The notes beneath the pieces are model-generated. The model ran no database searches and was not told the origin of the DNA. It worked only from the letters and a program-made list of their open reading frames with translations. This document shows, piece after piece, positions 2,881 to 64,000 of a stretch of 64,000 nucleotides of DNA. The position numbers were made by a program, and so were the translations under genes. This DNA is from Axinella damicornis (taxonomy: Eukaryota; Porifera; Demospongiae; Axinellida; Axinellidae): assembly GCA_963931865.1 (NCBI GenBank), contig OZ007517.1, positions 1,144,268 to 1,208,267 of the forward strand, given 5' to 3'. Every line of letters starts with the position of its first letter. Within the stretch, counting starts at the first letter, position 1.

Positions 2881-3103
2881 TCAGTGACCAGGCTGGCCGT
2901 AAGGGATGGGTTCATAGGTATGATTCTCCTCCTCCTCCTCATCCTTTTCCGGCCTTGAGGACCTGAAGTGTCCATACGCAGGGTTAGTTTCTATTGCAAC
3001 GTGGTCTGCACTTGATGGGACAATATTGGCATAGGCTGGATTACGTTTCACCATACCAGCATCCCTGGCTGGTAACTGGGGGAGTTCATATGTTTCATAG
3101 GGA
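2881..3103 (-). CDS. Receptor A last exon: cytoplasmic tail with NPAY motifs
   Basis: Encodes about 74 residues ending in TGA at 2,881-2,883. Visible motifs are YETYELP, two NPAY motifs (RNPAYANIVP and TNPAYGHF), an acidic EEEEE run and TYEPI. NPxY is the classic ligand of PTB-domain adaptors and also an endocytosis signal; YELP and YANI could be phospho-tyrosine docking sites. These roles are inferred from motif classes. Receptor B has no counterpart of this exon. The acceptor at 3,104 restores the frame left by the membrane exon. Confidence 0.85.
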
Positions 3104-6100
3104 CTGCAAGGAATGAGTAATATGGAAGTGATCACAGCAACGTGACAGTTTGAACTACAGGTGATAAGTTACCTGAAGCTCTTCTGCTTCCTTGTTCTCA
3201 GTACCAGAATAACTACCACAAGAACGGTACTAACTACTATCAGTAGGACACAGACAGCTCCAATAGCTCCTCCAAGTGCAGCAACATTTGCACCACCTGG
3301 TCCACCAGTTACTGTGTCAGATTCACAGTCCCCAGCTTCAAATGATTCGAGTTGTGTAGGACAGGATGGGTCAACATCGAGCCTTGTTGAATCAACATTG
3401 ATTGAAGTTCCACTTTGTGCCCATGCTGAAACCAATGCCACTAGGCTATCTGCTGCGTACGGATCCGCCCCAAAGTTAGTGTAAACGATCTCTGCCCTAA
3501 AGACGACTGTATTCTCAACACTTCTGCAGCTGAACTCAGGGTTTTGTAAGTTGGTATCAGTGAAATTGCATGAGCAATCCCTCTGGACCGTCTGTACCAC
3601 AGCAGACACAATGTCCATGAACTTTCGACTCCTGTTTTCATCCTGAAATGCAACACAAACAGCCTTAACTTCTAGTATGCATGTTTCCTCACACTAACAG
3701 AATGTGAGTGATGTGTGCAAACTTACCACCCATGTCACACACTCTCTCACTGGTTTCAGCCTGAGCTGAAAGTATGCAGTTGTGGTTACAGGAACTGTAG
3801 CTACAAGAGAGATCAAGCAACGATCTTAGCAAAGCAATGCAATGCTGGCACAATCCTACCTGTTGTGTTATCAATTGGTTCCACAACTGGGATGACAAAG
3901 GTAGAGACAAATAATCAGTGAGGAATGTTGAAGAGTGGGTTGCTAATGGATGCTTACCGGTGGTGGTTGGGTTAGTGTAAGCACTGGAGGTGAACACATT
4001 GTACTGTCGCTGAGATAAGGGAACTCTGCGAACACGGCTATTTGCAGCACTCTGCATGGGGGAAGAGGTAAATGAATAGAAACATAGAATAGATAGGTAG
4101 AGATACATTGATAGATAGATAGATCAATCGGGGCTGGGGAAGCAACTTTTAATTGCTGCAACCAACACTGCCGACAAGCATCTGTGTTCCTCCACAGAGG
4201 CTGTGAAGCAGCCGAGAAAATCATGTGAATTTGCACCGTTCATCGTGCTGCTTTCTGCGTATGCTTTAAGGAGTGTTTCCCCATCCCTAGTTACAGAAGA
4301 TAGATGGATACATAGATAGATAGATAGATTGATAAATATTACAGAGCAGTACCTTATTCAAGCCACTTACAGTGGTAAATCGATTTCTAGCGTAGTAGCT
4401 GGAATATTATAAGTAATAGCCTAAAGAGATCTGGGGACCAGAAGTTTGAAGTTAGTTTTCTAGCTGGTGCCAACCAACTACCATGAAAAAGGAGATGGTG
4501 TACCACACCCACACACTGCATGAGGTCAACTCACATCGTCAGCTTCCGGGTAAACCCTTATGAAGAAGGTATAGGTTTTAGCATAGCAGAGAAGGCCGTT
4601 CGTGATGTCTGGTCTATCGTTGGGTTGGTTTGAGCCACCAACAATGAATTTGCCATTGCTAGGGAAAAGATTTGCATCAAATTCAGATGTGATATATGCG
4701 CTGGGAAGTGACCCTGGGTTGTCACAGTTGATATCGCTGTATATGCCAAGGGAGTCTACGTCGGGAAACAGAACGTTAGGAGGTTGAAGATCCCCGACAT
4801 TTGTGCCGGCTTCAATCAGTACTGCGATCACCTGGTAGTGGCTGAGGAAAAGATGGGATGGGTAAGAGGGGGAGATCTGTGCTTTTATAAAGTAGAACAG
4901 TGTTGTTCTTCTGTCAGCCATTACCATCATGATATGTGCATTTGATATATTTACTGTGATAACTTGAAGTTGACTGTTCAAATGGTAATCAAGTTTATCA
5001 TGCAGAATACAGAATGTGTTTATATAGCACAAGAGATGTATCTGATCTAAGTGAGTGGATGGCCACATCACAGCCAAAGATGTGTCAAGCACAACATGCT
5101 AACGAAATTACCAAACATACAGTACAGATCATAAGATGCTATTTAAAGTAACTGCTAAATATATCACATTTACCTGATCGGTCCATTTGTTGAGGGAACC
5201 AGAGGGAGTATGAGGATGTAGGTCCGGGGTCCTCCTGTCTGGTTGGCCTCTGTCAGAGGATCCAGGGGAGCTGGGGGTGCTTGGGGAGGGAGGTGAAGTG
5301 AGGGGTGAGGAAGTGAGGAGGTGAGAAGATGAGGTGAGTGGGTGGAGGTGGAGGTGGTAGTGCTGTGTGTGTGTGTTTAGATGCTGAGAAGAATGTAGAA
5401 ACTACACGTGGACAGAGAAAATGAGATGGAGGAATTGTAGAGTGGTGGGAAGGATGGAGGGAGTGATGGGTGGAGAGATGAGGTGTCTTAAGCTTACCAG
5501 TCAGTGTTGTTCCCACCACAGGGTCACTGCTCCTCCTGAACCCAGCTGTGTTGATTGCTGTGACAACAACACTATAGTCGGTTCTTGGGGCGAGGCCAGA
5601 CAGCGTGACCATCTGCCCACTCACCGACCGACTCCCTGTGTCACTGAAGGTATTGTCAAAGCTCTTGGTACCAACATACATCACCTGCAGGGATGATACA
5701 CAGAGTTGACACTGGCTGCATGCGTAACATCATTCTGCAGTAAGGCACTATTTTGCGTGTGACTATAGTATAGCTACCTGTACTGAAATGGTCATATAAA
5801 ATGTGCATTACCTGCTGTGCATGCCTACAGGTCTAAATCAGTCATACCTCCCTGTGTCAATAATTCCACTTCGATATCTAACCTGATTCTATGAAGCTGA
5901 CATGAAAGGGATTTGCTCATACAAACTCTTGTACGTACAGTGTAGGGTCCAAGGATCCCATTCGGCATAGTGGGCTCTTCCCAGGCCACCATCATGCTGG
6001 TCTGAGTGATGCCTGATAGAGTCACATTACAAGGAGCCGTGGGGACTAGGGGGACAAGTGTTGTGGGGGAGGAAGGAGATAAACACTTCACAACAAAAAC

Positions 6101-6153
6101 AGGATGCATGGTTGTGTTCAACAAGTCCATCTTACCCTTCCCCTCCTTCTCCC

Positions 6154-6194
<41 letters not shown>

Positions 6195-9100
6195 CTAGCT
6201 GGAGTACATTAACTTACTGTCAGGCAGGGTTATGGCTGTGGGTGAGGGTGAGCTCACATTGCCACACCCTAGCACATTGCAAGCCCGGACTACGAACCGG
6301 TAGTTGTTGAAAGGAACAATGTCTTCAGAGATGTTATACCTGAAACTTCCGTCACGGAACATCAGACTACCCACTTCAAGCATGCCTATAGGCATGAGAG
6401 GGGCTGTTATGTTGACGTTCTGCTGATAGATGATGAGCAACGTGATTGGACGGTTGCCGTCAAATGTAGGAGTCCACCGGAGGGCCAACCAGCGAGCCCC
6501 CATGTCAAACACGACAACATCCATAGGTGCATCCGGTACCTCTGTAAAGAGGGAAATCCAATCACATGAGAGCATACAAGAAAAAAGAAGTTGGTCTCTG
6601 ATGCCTGAATGGACTAACTGAAGGGTTTGCAAGCCATTTATAGTGTGTTTATAATACAGGCACTAATGGAGTTTGCATGAGCTTACCCAGCACAACCAGT
6701 GGGATGGAGGGAGACAGAGCTGTGAGGGTGGTGGTCTGTGGCAGCATGTTGGTGGCAGTGCAGGTGTAGTTTGCTGTGTCCCTTCTCTCCAGGCAATCAA
6801 AGCTCAGCACACTCACTAACACAAGCTCCCCGAGCAAACGAATGTCATTCATGTTAAATTCAGTCATGTCTTCCAGAAGTCCTTCAATTGTACCATTCCC
6901 CATAAATCCACTGCTTTCAAATGAAGATCCACTGGCAATGCAAAAATGGAAGGCAGTGATCCGGCCATCTGGAGTGGACATGACTTCCTCGCCTTCTTTC
7001 TGCCAGGTGATGGAGGGGAGGGGAAAGCCAGTTGTGAGGCAGACCAGCAAAGTCGGGAGGGAGACATTGACTTCAGTGAGGCTTGAGACATTGTTGATGA
7101 CTGGGTAGACTATAAGGAAAAGAGGGAGAGGGGAAGAAGTATACAGGATGAGGTGGAAGAAAGACTCACTCCCCCCACGGAAACAGTACGTGGAGCTCTT
7201 AGAGTCTGAGGAGTGAGCTAGTGGTCTTAATTATGATAGAACTTCATGAGTAAATAAGTGACCCTTTACCCTTACAACACAACTGAAGGAGACCCACCGT
7301 GAACAGTGAGGTTGGCATCAGACACGTCATCTCCAATGATATTCATTGCAGTGCAAGTGTATGTCCCTCTGTCTTCATACTGCACATTGAGGACGGTCAG
7401 CTCGCCAAACCCAGCCCCAATCCCCCTCGTCCGCTTGATCAGGTAGTTGTCCGTATCAGGTAGAGTGGTGTCAATAATGGATTCTGTGCTGCCGTTAAAG
7501 TTCGTGAGAGTCCAGAACACATCATGGTCGGGTACGGCTGAAGCCTCACACTGAAACACTGCACTGCTGCCATTGTTGATTTCATACTGGTCCACAGGAA
7601 GAACAAAGATCAGGGGACGACCTAGAAAAAAGGGGCACATAAAGCATTACACAAAAGTTTTTAAACCCCTTCCAACTAGATTCAGCATTCATTAATTAAG
7701 CATATAGATTTGAGGCACCAGACAGTAAATTGCTTACTGGTAACTGCCAACATCAATGCACACACATACACACACATTCACATACTATGTACGTACCAAA
7801 GACCAACAAATCAATGTATGAGAACCGTACACCAGCCGGGTTGGTTGCAACAAGAAAGTACCTCCCTTCGTCTGTCTCCCCACCAATTCCTCTTCGTTGT
7901 TGGGTAATATTAGACACTGTCAGGCCTATGAAACGCATGCCATCAAACTCAGAGAATGTCAGGGTGGATACTGCAGTCCTGTTAGTGAGACTTGTAATTT
8001 CTTGTCCTGCAAAGGGATTGTCACCGAAATTTGGAGCATAAAACCATTGGAGACCTTGCAGAAGGACTGGGGGAGATGCTACATCAATTCGGAAGGACAA
8101 GGTAGCACTGTCTGTCTCGTTTCCAATCACTTGCTGACCAGGAGCGAGAGGGACCACAATGGGGGGAACTGAGAGGGGGAGGAGAGAAAGTAGAACTACC
8201 ATACTTCTGACAGTTATGTACGTACATCCAAACAATTAACACAATGTTCAAAATACAGTAAGTTCACACTAGCCTTATCAATAATAAAACCCTGAGGTTG
8301 AATAGTGTTCTTGCAAGTTAATGCCGAAACATACTCACAAGAAGAACTACTTGTCTCTAAGTTACCCGTAATGTCTGCACTGACAGCTTATGGCAGATAA
8401 ATTCTAGCGGATGCTTTACATACAGCACTAGAACGCATATCCTGAGACCTACCTTGCACAAAGAGTGTAAAGTTTTGAGTAGCAATTTGCTGGACTGCAT
8501 TGATGTTAGAAGCCATGCAGGTGTACATATCCGTGTCACTGCCATTGGTGTTGAAGGTCAGGGTGCGCTCCACTTGATAAATGTTTCCTGCTGGAGTCGG
8601 TATCATCATTTGAGATGGCTCACCCAGCGTCAGACGTGAATTCAATTCACCAGACAGGCTCTGACCATTGCCCAACTCCCCCTCAGGTGTCAAAAGCATA
8701 CCACCTCTGAACCACTGGATGGTTGGTGGGGGGATACCAGTGGCAATACATTCGAATGTCACTGAATCAGTTACATTGATAACATATCCAGTGAAACTGT
8801 CATCCGGGAAGACGATTTCAGGAATGACTGTGAAGAAGACAAAGCTGGTGTTAGACAGTTAAACTGCATGTGGATACATGAACTGGCCAATCTACAGGGA
8901 GGTTGGCAAATTTCTTACCATGCACTGTAAGCTCAGCATTTGCGGTATCCTGACCAGGTTCATTTGTAGCTTTGCAGACATACACACCAGGCTGAGCATC
9001 AGCTGGGTCAGCCATTACAATGGTCAGATTGCTCAGAATCTCCCTCTCTCCAGAGGTATCTGTAGTAATCTCAATCGCATCATCCACAGGCACTAGCTGG

Positions 9101-15100: not shown

Positions 15101-18100
15101 ATTCTTACTTTGCACAGCCAGCTCAAACACACTCCTGTTGGTAAGAGAGAGACTCAGTTCTGGGATTGTGCTGGAGGCTTCACAGGTGAACATTCCTGCA
15201 TCTTCTTCAGCAACATTGAAGATCGTCAGCATCCGAGACACCATGAATGTGCCATCATCCATGTTTACAGATGATGTTTCCTCAGCCAGTTGGACTCGTG
15301 ACACAAGGTCCATTCCTGCTCCTGACTCTCCCCCAGTCCTGTTCAGCTCCACACCTTCTTGTAAGAACCTGATTGATGGTTGAGGGATCCCACGAGCTGA
15401 GCATGCAATTGAGATGTCATCTCTCCTATTGACACGGAATAGTTCTCCATCCACTGGCACCACAATGACAGGAGCAACTACATAATAATTAAAAGAGGGA
15501 AGAATAATAAGTGCCCAAAGAAAGTGAGATCGATTGTGTTGCATACCAAACACCATGACTTCAGCATTAGAACTGGTAAAAGGACCAAACATGTTCTCTG
15601 CAGTGCAGCTGTAGTTGGCAGTATCAAAGGCATCAGTGGGCTCAATGGTCAGTGTACTGGTGACATTTTCACTAGAGTAGGTGGTACTGATGGCAATGTT
15701 AGTCATGAACTCGGACATCTCCACCTCGGTGCCATTTGGAAACTCTTTGGTCCAGGTGACCTGTGGGGTGGGCTCTCCAGTGGCAGTGCAGCTGAGGACA
15801 GCAGGATCAGGTGAGAGGACATCCACATCCATGGGGTCTCCAAACAGAGTGACAGAGACTGCAGACAAAGAATAAAAACATTACTATCTACATGTGATGT
15901 TATACTTACAAGCTTCCAGCCTCAGGTTTCAATCACATAGATAACTATTATGTAATGGAGTCTTACTGGCTTGGATGATGCTGATACTGGCTGCATCCAC
16001 ACCTAGGTCATTGGTGGCAATGCAGATATAGACCCCATACTGGTCCACTTGTGTGATACTGAGAGTGAAATTGCCACTCATAGGGTCAGAGTTCAGGCGA
16101 GTGGCTTCTTCCCCCATCAGTACCCAGGCGTAAGTAATGGGAGGGTCCCCAGTGGCCGTGCACATCAGGTCAACAAATTCGCTCAAGACCACTGGAGGCA
16201 CCGGATCTGGTTGTACCATTATCCCACTGGGTGGCTCTGTGGGTGCAGTGAGAGATACCAGCACAGTTAACAGAGAACACACTACATGGGAACTGAAAGC
16301 ACATCACTAATGATATTCATGAGAGTCAACACAAGCCAAACTTCCCTCCAAACAGCAAACTAAAGGCAATCTTGCTCACGACTGCTACACACGGCTACCT
16401 GAAAATGGCTCATTGCTTATTCATGAAGCTGACAGACAAGCTGAATCTCAGCCAAAGCTGAAGGCTTTAATGAGATTAATTGACCTCAATTTGGACAATA
16501 ATGCCAGTCATGAGTCCCAATTTAGGGCTAATGATATTCATGATCCCCGGTTGTCAGGGTTAGGAGAGAGTGGAGTCTCAGGGTGAATTTACGAATATTG
16601 CATCACACAACACACATGCTTTCAACCCCATACTACCCAACCAAAGATCTGACAGGTGATATTCATGAGTGTCAACATTAGCCAACCCTCCCATCGGACA
16701 GCTGACTAAAGTCCAACACGCTCACGAGCACAGCATGGAGCTATCTAATCCTAACTCATTATTATTCATGAGCAGACAGAAAGACTGAGTTCTATCCCAT
16801 GCCCACTGGGTTTTAATGAGATTCATAGGCACACCAAGGTTAGTGGGATCACCCTAACCCGGATCAGGGTTAATGATATTCATAGGGCTAGGATCTACAG
16901 GGTTAGGCCAAACTCCAGTGTTAGGATTTGTCATTGCACTAGCCTAATTAAAGCCTTGAGATGGCCCTTAAGGTAGGAAACACGGCATCGGCGAAATCGC
17001 GCAATTTTGCTCATGAATAATTAATGAGATGACGTCACTTGCATACGGTTATTTAGAGTTATTCATCTGTTTACGTTTTCCCATGGCGGCAACCGGAATA
17101 AACAAGGGGGGCTTCTCTCTTTGATGCGGCTAGCGGCCCTTTCAAGTTTCAAATCGGTACTCTGATGTGGCCGTGCGGTACCTTGAAGATTTGTTTGAAC
17201 ACTCTTTTTTTTTCTTTTTTTTTCTTTTTAAGTAAAGAGCTATTCTGGCTTATTGAATGTAGCGATGGGCTGTCTGAGTGTGAATAGCTAGGTGGAGTGA
17301 GCAGGAATGTTTGTGGGTCTGCTGAAGTGGCCGAAGAACAGCCTGGAAAGTGAACAGCATCCGACAGCTCCCTGGCCAAGGTACTCTAGAGAGTTGACCT
17401 TTCGGCATTACAGGCCCCGCCCATTTTCGTGTTAGGGCGAATTTGGCTGGTTTGGTAGCTGGACTGGGCTGGTGAGAGGGAGTAGATGTGTGGCCAAAAC
17501 TCTGTAACCGAGAGGTGAACGTGGAAAAGCATCCCTAGTTTTGCAGGGGGTAGGTTGACCTTTTGGAAACTGGCCTTGGCTTGAGTCGGTTTTAGTTGGT
17601 GTGCGTGGAATTTTTTTTGAAAGCCTAGGGTAGCCAAACCTCTGTTTTTGAGGGTGGCAGTGAGTTTTGGGCTGTAGCCTGCAAGTGAGGAGAGCAAGTG
17701 GTAAATCCATCCGTAGTTTTTGGGCCTGTTTTGTGTGTGTATTGATGATGGGGTCAGAGTGTGGGTGGGGCCTTGGAGAGGGTCCAAATTTTCAGTTTCG
17801 TAGAGGGCCTTAAAATTGAGTTTTAGGGCATTTTCAAGCAGAGGGAGCAGTTTGATGCAAAGTATTGCTGAAACTTGTGTACGCTTTGATGCTGCCCATT
17901 TATCCATCAACTTGGTTTCGGAGATCGCGGTACCCATGTTTACTACCTTAAGGTAGTAAACATGGGTACCGCGATCTCCGAAACCAAGTTGATGGATAAA
18001 TGGGCAGCATCAAAGCGTACACAAGTTTCAGCAATACTTTGCATCAAACTGCTCCCTCTGCTTGAAAATGCCCTAAAACTCAATTTTAAGGCCCTCTACG

Positions 18101-42840: not shown

Positions 42841-42932
42841 GTGCACTTGGTAGTTGTATAATATTCTGTACCAGTGCACCATATGGCATAATATTTATTT
42901 GTTAACATATTGCCTACAACCTTTCCATACAG

Positions 42933-43895: not shown

Positions 43896-43899
43896 ACAG

Positions 43900-51634: not shown

Positions 51635-54429
51635 CTGTTCCATGTATGTATGTATGCATGTGTATATGTATGTATGCATGTGTGCATGTATGTATGTGTG
51701 TATGTATGTATGTATGTATTGTATGAAGTATGCATGAATGGCTTCATCAATGCCAGTCAAAGGTGAGCCACCATGCATACACAGTGCCAAGTGGATAGTA
51801 CACACTCTAGAAAACATAAATGACTGCACATGTAGGTACACACAATAGAGCATAACTATTGCGGAGTTTTATCAACACGAATAAATCCCACTATCTAGTA
51901 GGTATTTGCACTGGAAACGTTTATGAGTTGCAGTCGGACAGACTGCCATATATCACATCCCTTGTCCTCTTGGTCACAGGCTCTCTCCTCTGAAGCTCAC
52001 AGACTTCTTTCCAAAGCTGTTGCTGATACACAGGAGCTCTCTCAACCGATCGCAACAACAGACGTGCCACGTTGACCAGCTCAACTGAAGTGGTTGGGAG
52101 GCCAACAAAGCCCTGTGCTGAATCTGACTCATAAGCCTCCAAGTCCTGCCTTGACCCTGAGAGTCAAAAGAGATGAGAAGGGTACGGCAGGGGAAGAGTA
52201 TCGATTGCATGTACAGCCTGCGGCATGTGGCAAAGTTCGGGATTGTTCACTTTGTCACATGATGGCAAAATACCGACACAGCTGCAACTTGAAAGTCACA
52301 GTCTGGACCAAGAGGCAATATGATTGGGTTGAATGGTCACACGACTACAAACTCTTTATAAATATTATTATAGCCCACCTGGGTTTCTTCCGGCCTATGA
52401 CTGACATGGCAATGATTAAAATGATGGTAACAGTTACTAGCAGCAGGATGATGCCTCCTCCAACACTGGAAACTGCTGCTACAATGGTAGTGAGGGAACC
52501 ACTCGGTCCAGTTGAAGTGACAGTGGTTGTAGGTGTGTATATAGCTGCGGCAAGATATCATTAACATGATAAATTATGTCTTAGGGTTAGGGTTTGCTCT
52601 ACTTACTTGCGGTGCACCGCACTCCGGCAGTTCGGTTTGGGTTGTAACACACTGGGTTAGTGATCACTCCCGGACCAGGTGTGTTGCACTGAATCCCAAA
52701 TGTCTCAGCACCATTGCACATCACATTCTCCAGGTAGACAGGGCCGTACCAGGGTGGAAGGACTGAGCCATTCAACACTTGCGCATCTGCAGGGAGAATA
52801 TAAGAGGTGCAGATGTTTGTATGTTCACTGTTTCTAATGTGACCACCAAACAAGTCTACGTACCAAAGTTTGTCAAGTTGTAGCCAAATTCACGGCAAGC
52901 AACTTGAGCATCCAGCTGGTCCCAGCCCACATCACATATTGCTCCAAATGTTCCATTAATGCACACCTCCACTCTTCCCTGATGGTAGAAGGCACCAGCA
53001 GGGGTAGATCCGTAGTTGACATTGCCAAACCGAAGTTGTCCATCGTAGCAGCTTGGGGCAGGTGATGGAGTAGTCAACCCTTCGTGGAAGAACGGCTGCA
53101 GTAATTACTTCATGCTACACATCACTGCCTGATGTCAGTGAACTACGAATCAAACGGTGTCATCTGTATGGCACTTACAGGATTGAAGGGTAAATTTATT
53201 CATCTTACCTATCTAACCATTACTTAATTTGGTCTACTTACTTGCGGTGCACCGCACTCCGGCAGTTCGGTTTGGGTTGTAACACACTGGGTTAGTGATC
53301 ACTCCCAGACCAGGTGTGTTGCACTGAATCCCAAATGTCTCAGCACCATTGCACATCACATTCTCCAGGTAGACAGGGCCGTACCAGGGTGGAAGGACTG
53401 AGCCATTCAACACTTGCGCATCTGCAGGGAGAATATAAGAGGTGCAGATGTTTGTATGTTCACTGTTTCTAATGTGACCACCAAACAAGTCTACGTACCA
53501 AAGTTTGTCAAGTTGTAGCCAAATTCACGGCAAGCGACTTGAGCATCCAGCTGGTCCCAGCCTACATCACAGATTGCTCCAAATGTTCCATTAATGCACA
53601 CCTCCACTCTTCCCTGATGGTAGAAGGCACCAGCTGGGGTAGATCCGTAGTTGGCATTGCCAAACCGAAGTTGTCCATCGTAGCAGCTTGGGGCAGGTGA
53701 TGGAGTAGTCAACCCTTCGTGGAAGAACGGCTGCAGTAATTACTTCATGCTACACATCACTGCCTGATGTCAGTGAACTACGAATCAAATGGTGTCATCT
53801 GTATGGCTAACAGAGACACTTACAGGATTGAAGGGTAAATTTATTCATCTCACCTATCTAACCATTACTTAATTTGGTACTGTACAAGAGAGACCAAAGT
53901 CAATTTTTACCTAACTACCAAAGAGAGAGCAACAATGTCTAGAGCAACTATTATATTGAGGAATTGTGGAGAGGTGGAGAAGGGAGGGATGTAGGGAGTG
54001 AGAAGTTGAGGGGTGGAGAGTGGAGATGGAGAGGCAATCGAAGCGTACCAGTCAGTGTTGTTCCAACCACAGGGTCACTGCTCCTCCTGAACCCAGCTGT
54101 GTTGATTGCCGTGACAACAACACTATAGTCGGTTCTTGGGGCGAGGCCAGACAACATGACCATCTGCCCACTCACTGATCGACTTCCTGTGTCACTGAAG
54201 GTACTGTCATAGCTCTTGGTACCAACATACATCACCTGCAGGGAAGAGTTGACATTGTGGGAGTGGCATCGAGGGAGCGAGTGTTAAGTTAACTATCACT
54301 GACTGTTGGTATAATATTCTGGAAGTACTCCACACGGTTGATGGCTGGAGTACAATAATAGTTTGTCTGCTGCCATTTCTGGATACAGTACATGTTATAT
54401 ATCTTGTGTCTTGTGGTAGTTGACATTGT

Positions 54430-54465
<36 letters not shown>

Positions 54466-57400
54466 ACTGACGTTCAAATTGATAGGGAGTTTATATCATC
54501 CAAGGTGATAAAGCAGTTACACACATGCCGGTACTGCCTTTGCAGATGGATGGATCCATAGCAACCATGAAATAGGTTTCTTGTAAACTCTACATACATT
54601 GTAGGGTCCAAGGATCCCGTTCGGCATAGTGGGCGCCTCCCAGGTCACTATCATGCTGGTCTGGGTGATGCCTGATAGCGTCACATTACGAGGATCCGTG
54701 GGGACTAGGGGGATAAGGGTTGTGGAGGAGATACAAAGACAGGAATGGTCATGTTCAGCAAGTCCACCTAACGTACTCAACCCCTCCCTCCCCCTCCCAC
54801 CCTCCCTCCCCCTCCCTAGCTGGATCAGTACAAATAACTTACTGTCTGGCAGGGTCATGGCTGTGGGTGAGGGTGAGCTGACAGTGCCACACCCCAGCAC
54901 ATTGCAAGCCCGGACTGCAAACTGGTAGTTGTTGAAAGGAATAACACCTTCAGAGATGTTGTATCTGAAGCTTCCATCACGGAACATCAGACTTCCCACT
55001 TCAAGCATGCCTATTGTCATGAAAGGGGCTGTTATGTTGATGTCCTGTAGGTAGGTGATGAACAATGTGATTGGACGGTTGCCGTCGAATGCGGGAGTCC
55101 ACCGGAGGGCCAACCAGCGTGATCCCATGTCAAACACCATAACATCCGTGGGTGCGTCAGGTACCTCTGTAAAGAGGGAAATATAATCACACAGCAATCA
55201 CATGGCAACCATTTGAGCGTAAGGAAGGATGTTTGAACAAACTGAGTTGCAAGCGATTGATAGTGTGCTAACTAAGGTTTCTTATAAGAATACAGGCACT
55301 TATGGAGTTCATGAACTTTGCATGAGCTTACCCAGCACAACCAGTGGGATGGAGGGAGACAGAGCTGTGAGGGTGGTGGTCTGTGGCAGCATGTTGGTGG
55401 CAGTGCAGGTGTAGTTTGCTGTGTCCCCTCTCTCCAGGCGATCAAAGCTCAGCACACTCACTAACACAAGCTCCCCAAGCAAACGGATGTCATTCATGTT
55501 AAATTCAGTCATGGCCTCCAGAAGTCCTTCGATTGTACCATTCCCCATAAATCCACTGCTTTCATATGAAGATCCACTGGCAATGCCAAAATGGAAGGCA
55601 GTGATCCGTCCATCTGGAGTGGACATGACCTCTTCGTCGTCTTTCTGCCAGGTGATGGAGGGGAGGGGAAAGCCAGTTGTGAGGCAGACCAGCGAAGTTG
55701 GAAGGGAGACACTGACTTCAGTGAGGCTTGAGACATTGTTGATAACTGGGTAGACTATAGTGTGAGGAGGGGAAGAGGGAGAGGGGAAGAAGTATTCAGT
55801 GGAAGAAGTATAACGAGCCTAGGGACGAGTGAGCTAGTGCCATATGACCCACCATGAACAGTGAGGTTGGCATCAGACACGTCGTCTCCAATGATATTCA
55901 TTGCAGCGCAAGTGTATGTCCCTCTGTCTTCATACTGCACATTGAGGACAGTCAGCTCACCAAACCCAGCCCCAATCCCCCTCATTCGTTTGATCAGGTA
56001 ATTGTCCGTATCAGGTAAAGTGGTGTCAATAATGGATTCTGTGTTGCCATTACAGTTGGTGAAAGTCCAGAACACATCATGCGGAGGTACGGCTGAAGCC
56101 TCACACTGGAACACTGCACTGCTGCCGTTGTTGATTTCATACTGGTCCGCAGGAAGAACAATGATCAAGGGACGACCTGGAAAAAAGGGGTACATAAAGC
56201 ATTATACAAAAGTTTCTAACCCCTTCAAACTTGGCTCAGCACTATAATTAATTACAAGGGACAATAAGTCACTAACTGGTAATTGCCAACATTACTGAAT
56301 GGACACACAAACATTCACATACTACATACGTACCAGAGACCAGCAAATCGATGTATGAGAACCGTACACCAGCCGGGTTGGTAGCAACAAGAAAGTACCT
56401 TCCTTCATCTGTCTCCCCACCAATTCCTCTTCGTTGTTGGGTAATATTAGACACTGTCAGGTCTATGAAATGCATACCATCAAACTCAGAGAATGTCAGC
56501 GTGGATACTGCAGTCCTGTTTGTGAGATTTGTAATTTCTTGTCCTGCAAAGGGATTGTCGCCAAAGTCTGCCACATAAAACCATTGGAGACCCTGTAGAA
56601 TGACTAGGGGAGCTGCTTCATCGATTCTGAAGGACAGGGTAACACTGTCAGTCTCATTTCCGATCACTTGCTGACCAGGAGCGAGAGGGACAACAACAGG
56701 GGGAACTGAGTGGGGGAAGAGAGGAGGAGAGAAAGCAGGACTATGTAAATAGGGGAGGAGTGGAGGAGAGGAAGTAGAAATATGAGAGTTGTACATCTAG
56801 CAGTAGACAAACAATTAACACCGTGTTACCAAAATCACAGGTAAGTTCACACAATCACAAATGTATCTCAGCCAAAAATCCTGAGGTGCTTGCTATGCAA
56901 TACTGAAGAACTACTTGTCTCTAAGTTTCCCATAAATGTCTGCAACTGACAGTTTATGGTATTCTAGTGGATGCTTTACAGATTATCCTGAGACCTACCT
57001 TGCACAAAGAGTGTAAAGTTTTGAGTAGCAATCGGCTGCACTGCATTGATGTTAGAAGCCATGCAGGTGTACATATCTGTGTCACTGCCATTGGTGTTGA
57101 AGGTCACGCTATGCTCCACTTGATAAACGTTTCCTGCTGGAGTTGGTATCATCATTTGAGATGGCTCACCCAGCATCAGGCGTGAATTCAATTCACCAGT
57201 ACTGACCAGGCTCTGACCGTTGCCCAACTCCCCTTCAGGTGTCAGAAGCATACCTCCTCTGAACCACTGGATGGTTGGTGGGGGGATACCAGTGGCAATA
57301 CATTCGAATGTCACTGAATCAGTTACATTGATAACATATCCAGTGAAACTGTCATTCGGGAAGATTATTTCAGGAATCACTGTAGAGAGGAAAGCAAACA

Positions 57401-60400
57401 AAAGCAGATAAACTATGGATACAGGGAGATTAAGATTTGAATGGTGGCAAATTCAGTGGAACTGATCAGTTTAGAGGGAAGGTTGACAAATTTCTTACCA
57501 TGCACTGTGAGCTCAGCACTTGCAGTATCCTGGCCAGGTTCATTTGTAGCTCTGCAGACATACACACCAGGCTGAGCATCAGAGGGGTCAGCCATTACAA
57601 TGGTCAGATTGCTCAGAATCTCCCTCTCTCCAGAGGTATCTGTAGTAATCTCAATTGTATCGTCCACAGGCACTAGCTGGTCCAGGAGTGAACCATTCTC
57701 AAACATCCTCCACCATGTGATCTGTGGCCTGGGTCGTGCAGTGGCATTGCAGAGGAAGGTGGCTGACTGAGGCTGGACCACTGTCAAGTTCTCTGGAGGC
57801 TCGAGGATGGTGGGAGCAACTGGGAAAGAGGAAACACAGTTGAGTTGGTATTAATACTGTTCTGTCATGGCATAGTAATGCCTCAGTCCTATCCCTCCCT
57901 GATCCACACATAAGCTTGGAATAATCACCAGCTTACCATTAACAAATAGCTCAAAGTCTTGAGTATCACTGGGTGTCACAGCATTCCCATTGGAGGCTAC
58001 ACAGGTGTAGGTACCAGAGTCAGCATCCATGGTGTTGGCCAGGGTCAGGTTGCGACTCACAAGGAAGATATTCCCACCATCAGTTGGGTAGAGTTCTGGC
58101 ATTGTTGGGTTACTGAGGGTGACTCGTGCATTACTAATTGGCATTCCATTCCTCATCCAGTTAATCTCAGGTGGTGGGATACCAGTGGCTGAGCAGGTGA
58201 AGGTTACTGGGTCAGTCTCATTTACAACATACACAGTACTGTCCACAGGGAAGGTGATGTTTGGTATCACTGGAAGAGAACGGTTGGGAAGAATAAAGGT
58301 CTTGAATCACAACTCTCTCTGATGAAACATTACCGACTTACCATGCACAGTGAGTTCAGCAGTTGCAGTGTCCTGGCCAGCAGCATTAGTAGCTTGGCAG
58401 ACATATCCACCAGCATCAGACGGGTCAGCCATTACGATAGTCAGATTGCTCACTATCTCTCTTTCTCCAAAGTTATCACTACTGATCTCAATTGTGTTTG
58501 TTCGTGCCATCAACTGGTTACCCATCCTCCACCATGTGATCTGTGGCCTGGGTCGTGCAGTGGCATTGCAGAGGAAAGTGGCTGACTGAGGCTGGACCAC
58601 TGCCAGGTTCTCTGGAGGCACAAAGATGGTGGGGGCAACTGGGGAAGATGAGAGAAGAACAGTTGAATTGTACTGTTTTGGTTTTGTACCCCTAATATTC
58701 ACACTACATGTACGGCATGGAGCAATACAGTGTACATACCACCATTGTTGCACATGTCCAACTTACCATTCACAAACAGCTCAAAGTTTCGAGTTAAACT
58801 GGGAGTCACAGCATTCGCATTGGAGGCCACACAGGTGTAGGTACCTGAGTCAGCATCCATGGTGTTGGCCAGGGTCAGGTTGCGACTGACAAAGTAGATG
58901 TTCCCACCATCAGGTGAGTAGAGCTCTGGCATTGTTGGGTTACTGAGGGTGATTCGTGTGTTACTGAATGGCACTCCATTCCTCATCCAGGTGATCTCAG
59001 GTGGTGGGATACCAGTGGCTGAGCAGGTGAAGGTCACTGGGTCAGCCTCATTCACAGTGTACGTGAAGGTATTGTCCACAGGGAAGGTGATGTTCGGTAT
59101 CACTGGAAGAGAATGAATTCAAGAAAAATGTATTTGCCAGTGCAGTAAAGGTCATATATGTTTCCTTATTTGGCTTACCATGAACTATAAGAGTGGCCTG
59201 CTCTGTAGTATTTCCAGGTTCATTCACACCCATACAGCCATAGGCACCAGCATCAGAGGATTCTGTGCCAACGATGGTTAGGTTGCTCCTCCTCTCCCTC
59301 TCTCCAATCTCCTGTTCCACAATACTGAAATTTCCTGATGGTGGTTGTAGTAGAGTAAAGTCTGATACTCTAAACCATGCAATTGCTGGCCTGGGTCTGC
59401 CAGTAGCCAGACAGGAGAAAGTGGCATCTTCAGGTTCAACAACCGTGACGTTGTCCGGTGGGTCAAGGATTTGAGCTGCAACTGTGGAAATGAGAAGGAT
59501 TAATTTAAACATGCCCGGGGTATAACTTGAATGACCCACATACCTTGGACAATCAGTTCAAAGTCTTGAGTCACAGTGGGTGTCCTGGCATTCCCATTGG
59601 AGGCCACACAGGTGTAGGTATCTGAGTCATTGTCCCTGGTGTTGCTGATTGTCAGGTTGCGACTGACAGAGTAGACGCTTCCACCAGTTGTTGGAAATGC
59701 CTCTGGATCAGAGGGATTGCCGAGACTAATACGTGGGTATACGTTATTATCTAGGAGTACTCCATTCCTCGTCCAGGTGATCTCAGGTGGTGGGATACCA
59801 GTGGCTGAGCACATAAATATCACTGGGTCAGTCTCATTTACAACATAGGTGAAGTTTGCCAGTGGGAGCAGGATGCTTGGAACCACTGCACAATGAACAG
59901 ACATAATCATCATGCACGTCTTTACTGTTTCTAGAAAGTGATGCTAGACTTGTAAAGATATGAAGATAAATGTAGTCTCGGTCCCAGACCTTTCATCCAA
60001 CACGTATATCGCTTCCGGTATAATGTGCAGACTAAAAGTGATCTGCACTGGGGTTGGTTGGGTCTGGGCCAGGACCAATATGAGATAAATCATATACAGA
60101 TACTATTTCTACATTAAATTGTGCTGCAATTATACCATTTCAGCATTTGGTATGTATGGATGGTGAACTGAGGTTCAGATCAACTGTACCTACCATACAC
60201 TGTCAGCACTGCAGAGGCCGGAACTGTAGCAAGTTCATTGCTAGCCACACAGACATACTCAGCAGCATCAACTGGTTGGGGCTGGAGGACGATGAGATTA
60301 CTCTGTCGTGTCCTAGGGAGGTCATCCGCTGTTATAGTGATATTGACTCCATCTGAGGACAGCTGTGTAAGGCTGTTATCTAGTTCCCGCCTCCACCATG

Positions 60401-63400
60401 TTATCTCTGGAGTTAGGACCCCATCAGCTACACAGGTGAACACAGCAGGGTTGGGTGACACCACAGTTGTGTCCATGGGAGGGATCAAGATGGTGGCTGG
60501 AACTGGAGATGGAAGATAGGTACAGATATAGAGAAACACAATTGTCAATTACATGTGCAGTTTTACAAATGTGACCTACCACACACACACATATGCCTGT
60601 ACCGTAGTCTCTCGAAAATACGCCCACCCTCGAAAATACGCCCACCCCCCTTTTTCGCGACAAGTTGTTGCAAAGGGTCATTTATTACTCGAAAGTACGC
60701 CCACCCTATTAGCTCGAACAGGAAAGCACTTGAATAGCTCCGGAAGAAGCACCGTCAAAGAGGTTGGACTAAGAAATGAAGGCTGGTACTATTTGCAATG
60801 AATTCCATTATGTTGCATGCCATTGCATAATCAGCTGTGTACTGAATGCATGACATGAGACCGTGCACGCTCTGTGCATTGCATGTTTGTGTCTTCGCGT
60901 GTGCAGTCGCCTAGCGTAGCACTAGCAGCGCACTACGGATTTCTAGGAAGCAGCAGCAATCGGCAAGTCCCGAAGATAGTCTGCGCACTGTACGTCATTG
61001 AAGCAGTCCTGCTGTGTCTTGTTTGCTGTTCCTGTAGCTACTCACACGAAGAGATTGTTCCTGCTCACCAAGAAACTCCGGGACTAGTAGTAGTTAAGCC
61101 TTGCTAGAATGACTGTTGCCGTATTGCACTCGTATACGCATGTACTTGGGTGGGCCTACTTTCGAGTCAAGGGTGGGCCTATTTTCGGGAGAGGGGTCCT
61201 CGAAAATACGCCCATCCCCCTCTTTGAGCAGATTCTAAATTCATCGCCCATGGGCGTATTTTCGAGAGACTACGGTATAGCATCTATGAGAAAAGGTAGA
61301 GAGACAAGAACAAAGCTGTCTAATGCTTACTTTGCACAGCCAGCTCAAACACACTCCTGTTGGTAAAAGAGAGACTCAGTTCTGGGATTGTGCTAGAGGC
61401 TTCGCAGGTGAACATTCCTGAATCTTCCTCAGCAACATTGAAGATGGTCAGCACCCGAGACACCATGAATGTGCCATCATCCACGTATACAGATGATGAT
61501 TCCTCAGCCAGTTGGACTCGTGACACAAGGTCCATTCCTGCTCCTGACTCCCCCCCAGTCCTGTTCAGCTCCACACCTCCTCGTAGGAACCTGATTGATG
61601 GTGGAGGGATGCCACGGGCTGAGCATGTAAGTGAGATGTCATCTGTCCTATTGACACGGAATAGTTCTCCATCCACTGGCTCCACAATAACAGGAGCAAC
61701 TGCATAATAATTGAGAGGGAAGAATAATAAGGCTACTGAAGTGCCCAATGAAAGTGATATCAAATTGTGTTGCATACCAAACACTGTGACTTCAGCATTA
61801 GAACTGGTAACTGGACCAAACGTGTTCTCTGCAGTGCAGCTGTAGTTGGCAGTATCAAAGGCATCAGTGGGCTCAATCGTTAGTGTACTGGTGACATTTT
61901 CACCAGTGTAGGTGGTACTGATGGCAACTTTAGTCATGAACTCAGACATCTCCACCGCGGTGCCATTTGGAAACACTTTGGTCCAGGTGACCTGTGGGGT
62001 GGGCTCTCCAGTGGCAGTGCAGCTGAGGACGGCAGGATCAGGTGAGAGGACATCCACATCCATGGGGTCTCCAAACAGAGTGACAGAGACTGCAGACAAA
62101 GAAAAGCATCCTATCTACATGTGATGTTATGCTTACAGGTTTCCACTCAATACTAATTAGCTCTGAGTGAAGCGGGGCAATAATTTCACAAGTGGTCATG
62201 GTGATTGCAGTAATGGTGATTGCACTTCCAAAGCAACATTTCTTCTAGATAAGATCACTAGAAGCAATCCAGCAAAATTAACAGTCCCAAAAGGAACAAA
62301 ATTGAAAGTAACTTCCTACAGAAGTATAACCAGTGCTGTGTACATGTAGGAAATGCATGCCACACAAGTACAACTTTAGTGGCTACATACACACAGCAAA
62401 TTACTACACAATGCCACATGTCGGTATACTCGTCTCCACTATACATGCCAAATGTCACTGTTGCTGTATTGTACACACTGAGTTAAAAACCTCATCCTCT
62501 CGCACGTACCGGTATATGATTAAAACCCATGCACCTGGGACACTACAACGCAGGCCCCAGGCCTACAGGTTTAATAAAGCGATATCTTGTCTATTATGTA
62601 ATGGAGTCTTACTGGCTTGGATGATGTTGATACTGGCTGCATCCACACCTAGGTCATTGGTGGCAATGCAGATATAGACCCCATACCGGTCCACTTGTGT
62701 GATACTGAGAGTGAAATTGCCACTCATAGGGTCAGAGTTCAGGCGTGTGGTTTCTTCCCCCATCAGTACCCAGGCGTAAGTAATGGGAGGGTCCCCAGTG
62801 GCCGTACACATCAGGTCAACAGACTCGCCCAAGACCACTGGAGACACCAGATCTGGTTGTATCGTTATCCAACTGGGTGGCTCTGTGGGTGCAGTGAGAG
62901 ATAACTCTCTCATGCATGATTATCATTACACTTTATGCATACGTTCATCAGAAGAACTGCTGATGACTTTGGGCCAAAAAACAAAACTGCACTGGGAACC
63001 TTCCAGCTGCTATAGCCCTGTGGTCATTGAACCAGCCTGCATGTGGTCATCAGCCCACAGACATTGGCAAACATGCACTCATCAGCTGACCTCCTCAGCC
63101 ACCACATGAATGTGCTATCAGATATGCACAATCACGGAGTCCTGACTTGCTATCCACATGATGCAAGTAAACCAATGGAATCCCAAGATGATTATGAACT
63201 AAAAAAGCGTGGATGGCGTGAGCTTGAGGACATGCTGGCAAAACTGTCACAGAAACAATAAATTTAGACACAATAAGTTAAATCTGTAAGTCCCAGGAAA
63301 CTTACTAATCAGTGAGGGGTCTATACTGAATGAATAGTGTCCTATTAACTTAATAGTGCAATCTAGTGATTGCCCGAGCATCTGATATTCAGTGTGAGGG

Positions 63401-64000
63401 TTAAGTGAAGGTCAATACCAACACTCACCTCCAAGCTCAATGGTGATTGTACCATTACCACTCAGCCCAGCAGGGTTGGTCACCTCACAGCGGTAAGTAC
63501 CAAGGTTTGATTCTGTTGTGATGGTAACAGTCAGCATGCTGCTAGTTTCACCAAGCATCATGGAGTTGTTGTGTACCCATCTGTAGGTGTAGCTGCCCAT
63601 GGGGTTGCTTCGTGTGACAGTGCAGGTGAGGGTGGTGGAGTTTCCAACCACAACCCTCGTGAGAGTCGCAGTGACCTGTACCTCTGGTGGAACTGTTTGG
63701 AACAAGCGACACAACACATGTAACTAATGACCATTGGGACTCTACAAGATTTACTGTGTATGGTGGATGAGTAGAATACCAGAGCGGCTTTTGATATGCT
63801 TACCTCGCACTTGCACATTGATAGTAGCATTGTTGGTGCTTTCTCCTTCTCTATTAGAGTTGAGGCCCACACATGTATACTCCCCTTCATGTGCTGGGTA
63901 GGCTGCATTCTCTATCATGAGCTCTGAAGTGATGTCACCATTTGTGATGCTAACCATTGCATTTGGTACAAATCCAGTTATTGTTGCTTGCAAATCATTC
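51436..64000 (-). CDS. Receptor B: giant Ig/FN3/SRCR transmembrane receptor (whole-gene entry, 5' incomplete)
   Basis: Paralog of receptor A, entering at the right window edge. In view: 16 Ig exons, two FN3 domains with the same internal intron, two SRCR domains, one membrane helix and one of two last exons. All delimited exons agree in phase and no stop was met, so the gene looks intact. The ectodomain up to FN3-2 matches receptor A exon by exon except that the repeated Ig array has 4 members instead of 12. After 54,049 the two genes share nothing: B has no receptor-phosphatase-like juxtamembrane exons and no NPAY tail. A cell-surface recognition role is inferred from the domains. Confidence 0.85.
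51638..51722. repeat. ATGT microsatellite
   Basis: ATGT/GTAT repeats between the two candidate last exons of receptor B. Confidence 0.9.
51921..52149 (-). CDS. Receptor B last exon, option 1
   Basis: Also joins the membrane exon in frame, using an AAG acceptor at 52,150: QDLEAYESDSAQGFVGLPTT, VELVNVARLLLRSVERAPVY, then VIYGSLSDCNS and a stop. The acceptor lacks a good pyrimidine tract. I do not recognise a domain. Either this exon or 51,436-51,634 could be the real end, or both may be used. Confidence 0.5.
52379..52544 (-). CDS. Receptor B transmembrane exon
   Basis: Thr/Ser-rich stalk AIYTPTTTVTSTGPSGSLTT, then a hydrophobic helix (about 25 residues, GGGIILLLVTVTIILIIAMS type) and basic IGRKKP. 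The exon ends in phase 2 at GTGGGC. Unrelated in sequence to the helix of receptor A. Confidence 0.8.
52607..52786 (-). CDS. Receptor B SRCR2, second half
   Basis: DAQVLNGSVLPPWYGPVYLE, NVMCNGAETFGIQC and PVCYNPNRTAGVRC. Typical SRCR C-terminal half with the final V-R-C. Confidence 0.87.
52864..53079 (-). CDS. Receptor B SRCR2, first half
   Basis: CYDGQLRFGN, GRVEVCINGTFGAICDVGWD and AQVACREFGYNLTNF. The G-R-V-E-V start and V-A-C-R-x-x-G-Y are SRCR signatures. Two-exon coding suggests group A. Confidence 0.88.
53242..53421 (-). CDS. Receptor B SRCR1, second half
   Basis: Almost the same as 52,607-52,786 (one residue seen different: TPGLG for TPGPG). Confidence 0.87.
53499..53714 (-). CDS. 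Receptor B SRCR1, first half
   Basis: Almost the same as 52,864-53,079 (GNANYGS for GNVNYGS). The acceptor lies after a ...CGAAG, without a strong pyrimidine tract. Confidence 0.86.
54049..54235 (-). CDS. Receptor B FN3-2, second half
   Basis: VMLSGLAPRTDYSVVVTAIN and GFRRSSDPVVGTTLTG. This is the last exon shared with receptor A. Confidence 0.88.
54598..54704 (-). CDS. Receptor B FN3-2, first half
   Basis: VPTDPRNVTLSGITQTSMIV, then TWEAPTMPNGILGPY. The donor is GTATGT. The intron after it contains a 34-base G run (54,430-54,463). Confidence 0.85.
54843..55166 (-). CDS. Receptor B FN3-1
   Basis: EVPDAPTDVMVFDMGSRWLA, LRWTPAFDGNRPI and FNNYQFAVRACNVLGCG. Confidence 0.88.
55332..55754 (-). 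CDS. Receptor B Ig, equivalent of A Ig27
   Basis: Same 423-base length as the A exon, with SGFMGNGTIEGLLEAMTEFN insert and DTANYTCTATNMLPQ. Confidence 0.86.
55853..56176 (-). CDS. Receptor B Ig, equivalent of A Ig26
   Basis: AVFQCEASAVPPHDVFWTFT and DRGTYTCAAMNIIGDD. Confidence 0.87.
56334..56705 (-). CDS. Receptor B Ig-like, equivalent of A Ig25
   Basis: VPPVVVPLAPGQQVIGNETD, LQGLQWFYVADFGDNPF and DEGRYFLVATNPAG; both disulfide cysteines are absent, as in A. Confidence 0.8.
56999..57379 (-). CDS. Receptor B Ig, equivalent of A Ig24
   Basis: VTFECIATGIPPPTIQWFRG and DTDMYTCMASNINAVQP. Two codons longer than in A (SLVSTGELN for SLSGELN). Confidence 0.87.
57499..57819 (-). CDS. Receptor B Ig array, type a (last)
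   Basis: SATFLCNATARPRPQITWWR, MFENGSLLDQLVPVDDTIEI and GVYVCRATNEPGQDTASAE. Anchors the end of the array against A Ig23. Confidence 0.9.
57937..58269 (-). CDS. Receptor B Ig array, type b
   Basis: PNITFPVDSTVYVVNETDPV, FTCSATGIPPPEINWMRNGM and SGTYTCVASNGNAVTPSD. One codon shorter than the A type-b exons. Confidence 0.9.
58342..58638 (-). CDS. Receptor B Ig array, type a
   Basis: PPENLAVVQPQSATFLCNAT, RPRPQITWWRMGNQLMARTN and GGYVCQATNAAGQDTATAE. Confidence 0.9.
58767..59102 (-). CDS. Receptor B Ig array, type b (first)
   Basis: PNITFPVDNTFTYTVNEADP, FTCSATGIPPPEITWMRNG and SGTYTCVASNANAVTPSLTR. Anchors the start of the array against A Ig12. Confidence 0.9.
59179..59481 (-). CDS. Receptor B Ig, equivalent of A Ig11
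   Basis: DPPDNVTVVEPEDATFSCLA, RPRPAIAWFRVSDF and GAYGCMGVNEPGNTTEQAT. Confidence 0.88.
59544..59885 (-). CDS. Receptor B Ig, equivalent of A Ig10
   Basis: LANFTYVVNETDPVIFMCSA, IPPPEITWTRNGVLLDNNVY and DSDTYTCVASNGNARTPTVT. More like an array type-b exon than the A counterpart is, possibly through gene conversion. Confidence 0.87.
60194..60502 (-). CDS. Receptor B Ig, equivalent of A Ig9
   Basis: NPAVFTCVADGVLTPEITWW and AAEYVCVASNELATVPASA. Confidence 0.88.
60602..61275. mobile_element. 674-base MITE with TA duplication in receptor B intron
   Basis: TIR CCGTAGTCTCTCGAAAATAC inverted at the right end, flanked by TA at 60,600-60,601 and 61,276-61,277. The corresponding receptor A intron (14,989-15,108) lacks it. 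GAAAATACGCCCACCC words recur inside. Confidence 0.87.
61331..61699 (-). CDS. Receptor B Ig, equivalent of A Ig8
   Basis: DISLTCSARGIPPPSIRFLR and DSGMFTCEASSTIPELSL. Confidence 0.87.
61778..62089 (-). CDS. Receptor B Ig, equivalent of A Ig7
   Basis: PAVLSCTATGEPTPQVTWTK and TANYSCTAENTFGPVTSS. Confidence 0.88.
62090..62612. other. Intron, nothing recognised
   Basis: About 520 bases, four times the A intron (15,859-15,966), so it has gained sequence, but I found no element ends. Confidence 0.4.
62613..62882 (-). CDS. Receptor B Ig, equivalent of A Ig6
   Basis: VDLMCTATGDPPITYAWVLM and YGVYICIATNDLGVDAASI. Confidence 0.86.
62883..63428. other. Intron with the empty TTAA site
   Basis: TTAA at 63,350-63,353, followed by TAGTGCAATCTAGTGATTG, corresponds to the right flank of the TTAA element pair of receptor A. 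The rest is not alignable with A by eye. Confidence 0.55.
63429..63692 (-). CDS. Receptor B Ig, equivalent of A Ig5
   Basis: TTLTCTVTRSNPMGSYTYRW and LGTYRCEVTNPAGLSGNGT. Confidence 0.88.
63804..64000 (-). CDS. Receptor B Ig, equivalent of A Ig4 (cut by window edge)
   Basis: Only the C-terminal half is in view: MVSITNGDITSELMIENAAY, then GEYTCVGLNSNREGEST. The 5' part of receptor B lies beyond 64,000. Confidence 0.85.

Follow-up and report, generated by a model that had tools for sequence, protein, structure and literature searches.

A tandem array of very large immunoglobulin and fibronectin type III receptors with apparently exchanged C-terminal ends in the sponge Axinella damicornis

The demosponge Axinella damicornis carries, on contig OZ007517.1 of assembly GCA_963931865.1 (C13 below), a locus that we read as a tandem array of very large cell-surface receptors of the immunoglobulin (Ig) superfamily with fibronectin type III (FN3) domains. 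The array would have been made by gene duplication, the outer part of the receptors being conserved or homogenised and the C-terminal end exchanged. We consider this account as a whole rather probable, a confidence that rests mainly on its structural and evolutionary half; its functional half, taken alone, is one that we would doubt slightly sooner than accept. The window, that is, the whole stretch of DNA first analysed, comprises 64,000 nucleotides (C13:1,144,268-1,208,267) of a genome of 226 Mb in 120 contigs. With flanks of 50 kb on its lower and 70 kb on its upper side, 184 kb were read (window coordinates -49,999 to 134,000), and the exons of M0, a member described below, were assigned by homology and order. 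The resulting gene models show at least three predicted cytoplasmic outputs behind homologous ectodomains, namely a tandem tyrosine phosphatase in the member designated M0, a tail with NPAY and YEPI motifs in A, C, E′ and, with a broken exon, D, and an unrelated tail behind scavenger receptor cysteine-rich (SRCR) domains in B.

At least six Ig/FN3 receptors lie in tandem on this contig, and all of the receptor genes described here are on the minus strand. Comparison of receptor A with the 184 kb places M0 at about -10 to -41.6 kb, A at 29.1 to 2.9 kb, B at 67.1 to 51.4 kb, C at 111.9 to 85.3 kb, and D from above 133.9 kb, where its upper part lies outside the sequence read, to 124.7 kb; M0 adjoins A at a distance of 13 kb. 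A sixth member, E′, of which the 3′ end only was read, lies above D and has its first FN3 exon (FN3-1) at C13:1,291,110. The FN3-1 exon of B finds nine matches in the genome, six of which are in the array (M0, A, B, C, D, and E′), and the others are a receptor at C13:2,975,737, 1.8 Mb away on the same contig (K), and two sequences on C12 (70% and 38% identity). Over Ig23-27 and the FN3 exons, M0 and A-D are 92-95% identical in DNA, so that clustered genes with very similar ectodomains, one mark of paired receptors, are found here. The initial annotation of the window had described A and B as paired receptors with one ectodomain and exchanged membrane-proximal and cytoplasmic modules, and had proposed the search for further members reported above. 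Its coordinates, its strand, and its phase-1 donors after the second FN3 domain (FN3-2) at 5,498 (A) and 54,049 (B) are confirmed, and the exchange behind ectodomains whose exons are homologous from the Ig part to FN3-2 is borne out; the two genes are, however, members of a larger array rather than a pair.

The phosphatase end is that of M0, in which FN3-2 is followed by a juxtamembrane exon, a transmembrane (TM) segment, and two protein tyrosine phosphatase (PTP) domains. The joined exon pieces match PF00102 at 4.2e-66 for the first domain (D1) and 4.2e-61 for the second (D2), the P-loops are intact across the splice (HCSAGVGRTG in D1 and HCSAGIGRTG in D2), and D1 contains a WPD motif. The PDB structures closest to D1 are those of PTPRS (409 bits) and LAR (400.6 bits), scores that are raised because the ten best chains hold two matched PTP stretches, both of which are counted. 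M0 is predicted to have the Ig and FN3 ectodomain, the single TM segment, the two PTP domains, the catalytic motifs and, by PDB score, the closest relatives (PTPRS and LAR) of an R2A receptor tyrosine phosphatase. No PTP domain is present in A, and the PTP exons of M0 find no copy elsewhere in the 184 kb. A does share with M0, and with K, the juxtamembrane exons (4,535-5,279, minus strand; 5,279-5,174 and 4,841-4,535), whose products in A and M0 are 93% identical in amino acids at a ratio of nonsynonymous to synonymous substitution rates (dN/dS) of 0.23. Taken alone, the juxtamembrane region of A has no Pfam match at E 1, and its PDB matches, only four in number, are at chance level (best E 0.038); its earlier description as receptor-phosphatase-like holds by linkage to the two PTP domains of M0.

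The second end, that of A, combines the juxtamembrane exons with a TM helix and two NPAY motifs, as first described. Its ectodomain is encoded by 27 Ig exons (6,687-29,149, minus strand), all of which fitted a script that allowed phase 1-1 only, with GT-AG sites, and which join into a frame of 2,964 amino acids with 0 stops; the FN3-1 and FN3-2 exons follow at 5,498-6,539. Of the 32 exons specified for the model, one did not pass the automatic rule, namely the first half of FN3-2; Pfam Ig families were recognised in four of the five Ig stretches submitted, the segment 24,594-25,031 matching none. A membrane-proximal domain containing cysteines, for which there is no Pfam family, and the TM helix lie at 3,172-3,660, and the cytoplasmic tail at 2,881-3,102 carries YANI and YEPI besides the two NPAY motifs. 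Assignment of the membrane-proximal exon to the SEA domain was tried and is not claimed, there being no Pfam SEA match (one chance match, E 0.45) and a predicted fold of low confidence. Against a public protein collection, a query with the membrane-proximal domain, TM helix, and tail gave 112 matches, headed by the window's own sequence; an NPxY motif stands in tail position in three of them (P0028, P0115, and P0116) and in none of the other 109, many of which are apparently cut at the exon end. P0115 joins the end of the membrane-proximal domain, the TM helix, and an NPAY tail in one frame and keeps the YEPIPY end, and P0116 has the whole of the three parts with two NPAY motifs and ends with YDVIPY. 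A homologue search with the C-terminal part of A gave 18 matches, the named ones being a fish protein, PTPRQ, LAR-like and PTPRD-like phosphatases, Dscam, and an FN3 protein. Receptors C and E′ lack the juxtamembrane block and carry the membrane-proximal domain, TM helix, and NPAY tail, and D is built from the same parts; A, C, D, and E′ all retain two NPAY motifs and one YEPI. The juxtamembrane block does occur in K, together with a TM segment resembling that of A and an open frame containing NPAF, which may be a short tail. The intron of A between Ig4 and Ig5 also holds a retroelement (19,300-23,415, plus strand), which may be DIRS-like, because it matches zinc-knuckle, reverse transcriptase, and RNase H-like sequences and, below threshold, a tyrosine recombinase.

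The third end is found in B, the ectodomain of which occupies 54,049-64,000 in the window (minus strand) and includes part of Ig4 to Ig27, FN3-1 (55,164-54,844), and FN3-2 (54,705-54,595 and 54,235-54,049). The gene is cut by the window and continues to about 67.1 kb, with Ig1-Ig3 at about 64.7-67.1 kb; A and B had been said to match exon by exon from Ig4, and the homology stands, whereas B starts before Ig4 and the Ig exons number 27 in A and 19 in B, because a unit of two Ig domains is repeated more often in A. Among the 19 Ig exons found in B, 18 are at least 78% identical in amino acids to an exon of A and one is 53% identical. Two further blocks of eight Ig exons lie upstream (67.5-74.8 and 75.8-81.3 kb), and they may belong to the same gene, since only about 0.46 kb separates the last of them from Ig1 of B.

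Behind this ectodomain, two SRCR domains, a TM segment, and a tail without NPxY were correctly recognised at the outset, and the gene models show B as a three-part graft, apparently of an array ectodomain, an SRCR part like that of a family on contig C5, and a TM-tail part like that of receptors on C4 and C12. The switch does not fall exactly at the FN3-2 donor, as had been thought: B remains homologous to C and E′ (93-94% in DNA) through the following intron up to 53,879, where the next array exon has its acceptor (TTGTACAG followed by T), and a C5-type SRCR flank is visible from 53,845 (first joint, 53,845-53,879). SRCR unit 1 (53,239-53,721) consists of two exons, and unit 2 (52,604-53,086) is its tandem copy with a period of 635 bp. 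The spliced pair matches PF00530 at 118.5 bits (curated cut-off 26.1), which places it in the SRCR superfamily, and in P0131 of the public protein collection a pair of such SRCR units is fused as splicing would fuse them. At best, these units are 73% identical to units of a cluster at C5:14.54-14.57 Mb, and 65% identical to the C7 match among the matches listed; the DNA similarity to C5 is about 75-83%, and dN/dS of SRCR exon 1 against C5 is 0.28-0.38. Few amino acid changes separate the two units of B from each other (exon 1 dN/dS 0.07). The homology with C5 ends at 52,593 and that with the TM intron of the C4 and C12 receptors starts near 52,556 (second joint, 52,556-52,593), so that both joints are mapped to within about 40 bp and both lie in introns. 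The TM exon (52,376-52,548) is 75% identical in amino acids to C4:2713346-2713516 and also resembles P0136, and the tail (51,436-51,636, most likely 51,439-51,636) is related to C4:2712782 and C12:3122760, being 56% identical to that of the Ig receptor at C4:2.713 Mb and more distant from the relative at C12:3.12 Mb. The C4 and C12 receptors read Ig1-Ig5, TM, and tail; no FN3-1 was found at these genes in the FN3-1 search, and no SRCR among the SRCR matches listed. We infer that the C5 and C4/C12 families are the donors rather than the recipients.

Two candidates for the tail of B were rejected. An exon at 51,924-52,151 (t1) accepts the same phase-2 donor and is possibly an alternative exon of B, but as main tail it is disfavoured by the C4 and C12 relatives, which use the exon at 51,436-51,636, and it looks like a dispersed sequence and resembles a broken one at C5:3,831 kb; a tail taken from the SRCR donor locus was not found either, as 40 kb on C5 contain no B-type TM or tail. 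The second joint also includes TTAGGGTTAGGG at 52,581, two telomere-type repeats within about 37 bp and the sole such site in the window; telomere-type sites of the opposite sense occur twice in the 184 kb, at 116.8 and 117.8 kb. In addition, P0135 joins the B-type SRCR module to EGF domains, which indicates that this module is used in other combinations as well.

The join in B could be read in other ways. If the SRCR, TM, and tail exons formed a separate gene beside a truncated receptor without NPAY, it would be understandable that A and B have nothing in common after FN3-2 and that the old acceptor is kept in the intron. However, SRCR exon 1 follows the FN3-2 donor at a distance of only about 0.3 kb, about half of which is the old array intron, and this leaves little room for a promoter and a signal peptide; FN3-2, both SRCR units, and the TM segment join in phase 1, the SRCR and TM exons accepting a phase-1 donor without a stop; and the region searched offers no other tail. 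The initial annotation held that juxtamembrane or NPAY exons located elsewhere would speak against its reading, and at the DNA level a tblastn search (E 0.01, 184 kb) found between A and C no A-type juxtamembrane, membrane-proximal, or NPAY exon besides those of A, and no B-type SRCR exon other than those of B. A separate gene is on these grounds quite improbable. It is only a little less improbable that B is mainly a soluble receptor or decoy, which would arise by splicing into the acceptor at 53,879: that acceptor is intact, and its use introduces a stop within four codons and ends B after FN3-2. Against this, the SRCR, TM, and tail exons are open, and the constraint on SRCR exon 1 noted above would be needless in a decoy. 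That A and B are isoforms of one transcription unit, with both tails reached by alternative splicing, we regard as scarcely credible, since the modules are compatible in phase 1 but each gene has its own diverged set of Ig exons (about 86% identity in DNA distally), and its own tail exons, about 49 kb from those of the other. The reading of B as a single grafted receptor is preferred to all three.

If any two members are to be called a pair, the best candidates appear to be M0 and A rather than A and B. A tract of 4.5 kb (24,041-28,588, minus strand), including Ig2, Ig3, the start of Ig4, and the introns, differs between A and M0 by 2 mismatches and 4 small indel blocks, and the amino acid identity of Ig2 and Ig3 is 100%, whereas A is 85.1-86.7% identical in DNA to B, C, and the two extra Ig blocks over the same region. 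M0 and A are put forward as the pair because a same-sense scan at 97% identity over 400 bp detected no other near-identical receptor tract within the 184 kb. Towards Ig4 the tract breaks off abruptly within the exon (27 mismatches in the 252 bp of 24,040-23,789), and on the other side a diverged patch surrounds Ig1 (21 mismatches in the 645 bp of 29,233-28,589). We infer that the tract reflects recent gene conversion, which would correspond to the homogenisation of ligand-binding exons in paired receptors, provided that these exons bind ligands. On the other hand, near-identity resumes upstream of Ig1 and extends to 29,724, with just 2 mismatches in 491 bp (29,724-29,234), and because of this break and resumption the data can be explained either by conversion tracts or by a recent 5′ duplication combined with a converted patch. 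The pairing of M0 with A would be weaker than it appears if the tract were a plain recent 5′ duplication or an assembly error, and the array is indeed large and repetitive; yet both copies are on one contig with different outer flanks, and the diverged Ig1 patch and the sharp edge inside Ig4 fit neither explanation well. We judge such an origin unlikely, though less so than a decoy function of B, and retain conversion as the preferred explanation of the tract.

A tree of M0, A, B, C, and D, in which K is the outgroup and E′ is left out, has the form (M0,((A,D)42,(B,C)91)93). The phylogeny of the shared exons that had been suggested thus places B among the NPAY-tailed members, with values of 91 for B and C and 93 for the clade of A-D, and because B groups with C inside these members it probably had its end replaced and lost an NPAY end. 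The coding modules appear mostly constrained, and the distal Ig domains less so: pooled dN/dS is 0.52-0.68 over Ig1-6 and 0.20-0.27 over Ig23-27 (Fisher p 5.6e-5 to 0.03) in the five of nine member pairs run that covered both groups, pairs that are not independent and do not include A-M0. Three further pairs gave 0.54-0.67 for the distal and one further pair 0.32 for the proximal exons, and single distal Ig exons reach 1.0-1.4 in some pairs.

The acceptor kept in B and the resumed identity of A and M0 upstream of Ig1 weigh against the proposed account, as do several further observations. The first exons and signal peptides of the gene models were not found; the predicted fold of the membrane-proximal domain is of low confidence (predicted local distance difference test, pLDDT, 57.7); and the grouping of A with D is weak (42). 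The membrane-proximal/TM exon of D (125,020-125,560, minus strand) has no single open frame, for which reason D may be a pseudogene, or the exon may contain an assembly indel. Pooled dN/dS stays below 1, because of which arms-race selection is not shown, and the change in the distal Ig domains is shown as relaxed or partly diversifying; some short exons are weakly constrained (dN/dS 1.12 for FN2b between C and E′, and 0.62 for the tail between B and its C4 relative). Finally, neither A nor B has an immunoreceptor tyrosine-based inhibitory motif (ITIM), an activation motif (ITAM), a hemITAM, or a charged TM residue in the tails and TM segments tested, and for lack of these, opposed signals between members are not proven. 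The B tail has none of the motifs tested, the M0 TM segment has no charged residue, and a site in the C4 relative fits both the ITIM and the hemITAM pattern.

These points bear most directly on the strongest rival, according to which ordinary exon shuffling and birth and death in a large adhesion protein family produced the locus, the tails varying neutrally and the members neither sharing a ligand nor functioning as pairs. Class 1-1 shuffling of extracellular modules is described as a common rule in animals (PMC8001218), SRCR and PTP matches are numerous in the genome, and the missing ITIM and ITAM, the pooled distal dN/dS below 1, and the broken frame of D would all be expected. It is harder to see under neutral shuffling why the 4.5 kb of near-identity in distal Ig exons joins exactly the phosphatase and an NPAY receptor, why NPAY and YEPI persist in all of A, C, D, and E′, and NPAY together with YEPIPY in P0115, and why the two SRCR units of B differ by so few amino acids. 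We therefore regard neutral shuffling as a serious possibility, albeit one that falls well behind the reading of the locus as an array with exchanged ends.

Under the latter reading, a working model may be proposed. NPAY and YEPI are motifs that, once phosphorylated, recruit proteins with PTB or SH2 domains. The members would bind the same or related partners through their distal Ig domains, and the phosphorylated NPAY/YEPI tails would recruit PTB/SH2 adaptors or drive uptake. M0, engaged by the same ligand, would dephosphorylate these tails, so that the response would be set by the balance of members, and B would send the same recognition to another output or add an SRCR ligand or surface. 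It is also tempting to speculate, as a rather doubtful possibility, that a non-bilaterian animal evolved its own paired-receptor recognition in a single array, with homogenised distal Ig domains common to a LAR-type phosphatase and a tyrosine-docking receptor, and with new outputs gained by grafting ends from unlinked families, as in B. If so, the locus would be a counterpart of the ITAM/ITIM pairs in which kinase docking is set against a phosphatase, possibly for the recognition of self or microbes.

Other features lie beside or between the receptors. Between A and B are pieces of a RecQ-like helicase (DEAD, Helicase_C, and RecQ zinc-binding) at 42,854-44,408 (plus strand) and a DUF6589 protein at 44,451-45,575 (minus strand). 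Beyond the end of the window, an exon with several EGF domains (83,780-84,440, minus strand) lies between C and the two additional Ig blocks that precede B. A near-identical inverted-repeat element (98.6-99.6% in DNA) occurs at 16,957-18,624 and 41,700-42,697 and, by translation, also in an E′ intron at C13:1,290.2-1,290.8 kb. Elsewhere in the genome, C5:0.70-1.44 Mb contains at least dozens of PTP-domain matches over 0.7 Mb, which suggests that tyrosine phosphatases have expanded there in tandem on a large scale.

Compared with known families, M0 resembles the LAR-type (R2A) phosphatases PTPRF, PTPRS, PTPRD, and Lar in having Ig followed by FN3 domains, one TM segment, and two PTP domains with HCSAGxGRTG. 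LAR has three Ig domains. M0 differs from these phosphatases in its many more Ig domains, its only two FN3 domains, the juxtamembrane block without a Pfam match, and its tandem paralogues without PTP; this arrangement suggests a route by which receptor phosphatases may yield non-catalytic partners. A receptor phosphatase with FN3 and one PTP domain is already known in a sponge (PMC5336234). The sponge SRCR superfamily is described as including tandem-expanded families with a variable number of units and SRCR domains split over several exons, and the modules listed there as combined with SRCR include fibronectin, Ig not being in that list (PMC10855680). B shares with it the tandem units, the split domains, and the combination with fibronectin, and differs in that its SRCR units sit between the FN3 and TM parts of an Ig receptor. 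Exon shuffling is thus visible at this locus with relatives of both donor modules still in the genome.

The fester co-receptors of Botryllus and Alr of Hydractinia are Ig superfamily receptors encoded at allorecognition loci; their tyrosine motifs vary, and among them is a Y-x-x-I/L/V core as in YANI and YEPI of A (PMC12065747). By contrast with them, A and B carry no ITIM or hemITAM, and a tail with such a motif, as in Alr or FcoR, is absent from C, D, and E′ as well. The CD45-like phosphatases of these systems appear in the account cited as expressed signalling proteins only, not as partners with matching ectodomains (PMC12065747). A literature search, mostly of titles and the openings of abstracts, gave no array that combines LAR-type phosphatase, NPAY-tailed, and SRCR-grafted paralogues behind one ectodomain, and none in a sponge.

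The vertebrate paired receptors (CEACAM, Siglec, LILR/KIR, and Ly49) are likewise paralogues with similar ectodomains and different signalling ends, and likewise show recombination near the ligand-binding exons and birth and death of members. In the CEACAM receptors, similarity is reported to be kept by conversion near the ligand-binding exons, a pattern that the tract of A and M0 resembles (PMC2832619). The array departs from them in the size of its ectodomains, which comprise from 19 (B) to 27 (A) Ig domains, and in its signalling code, since ITIM is opposed there to ITAM or to a charged TM residue with DAP12 (PMC2832619), whereas here a catalytic tandem phosphatase stands against the NPAY/YEPI tail and the SRCR graft. 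The comparison with vertebrate paired receptors made in the initial annotation stands for architecture, clustering, and homogenised distal exons and fails for the signalling code. It is plausible that the array works like paired receptors without their ITIM/ITAM code, while membership in the vertebrate type is not supported. With a phosphatase, a docking tail, and a grafted end at one locus, the origin of paired receptors becomes testable outside vertebrates, and the array looks like an early-animal version of the vertebrate systems.

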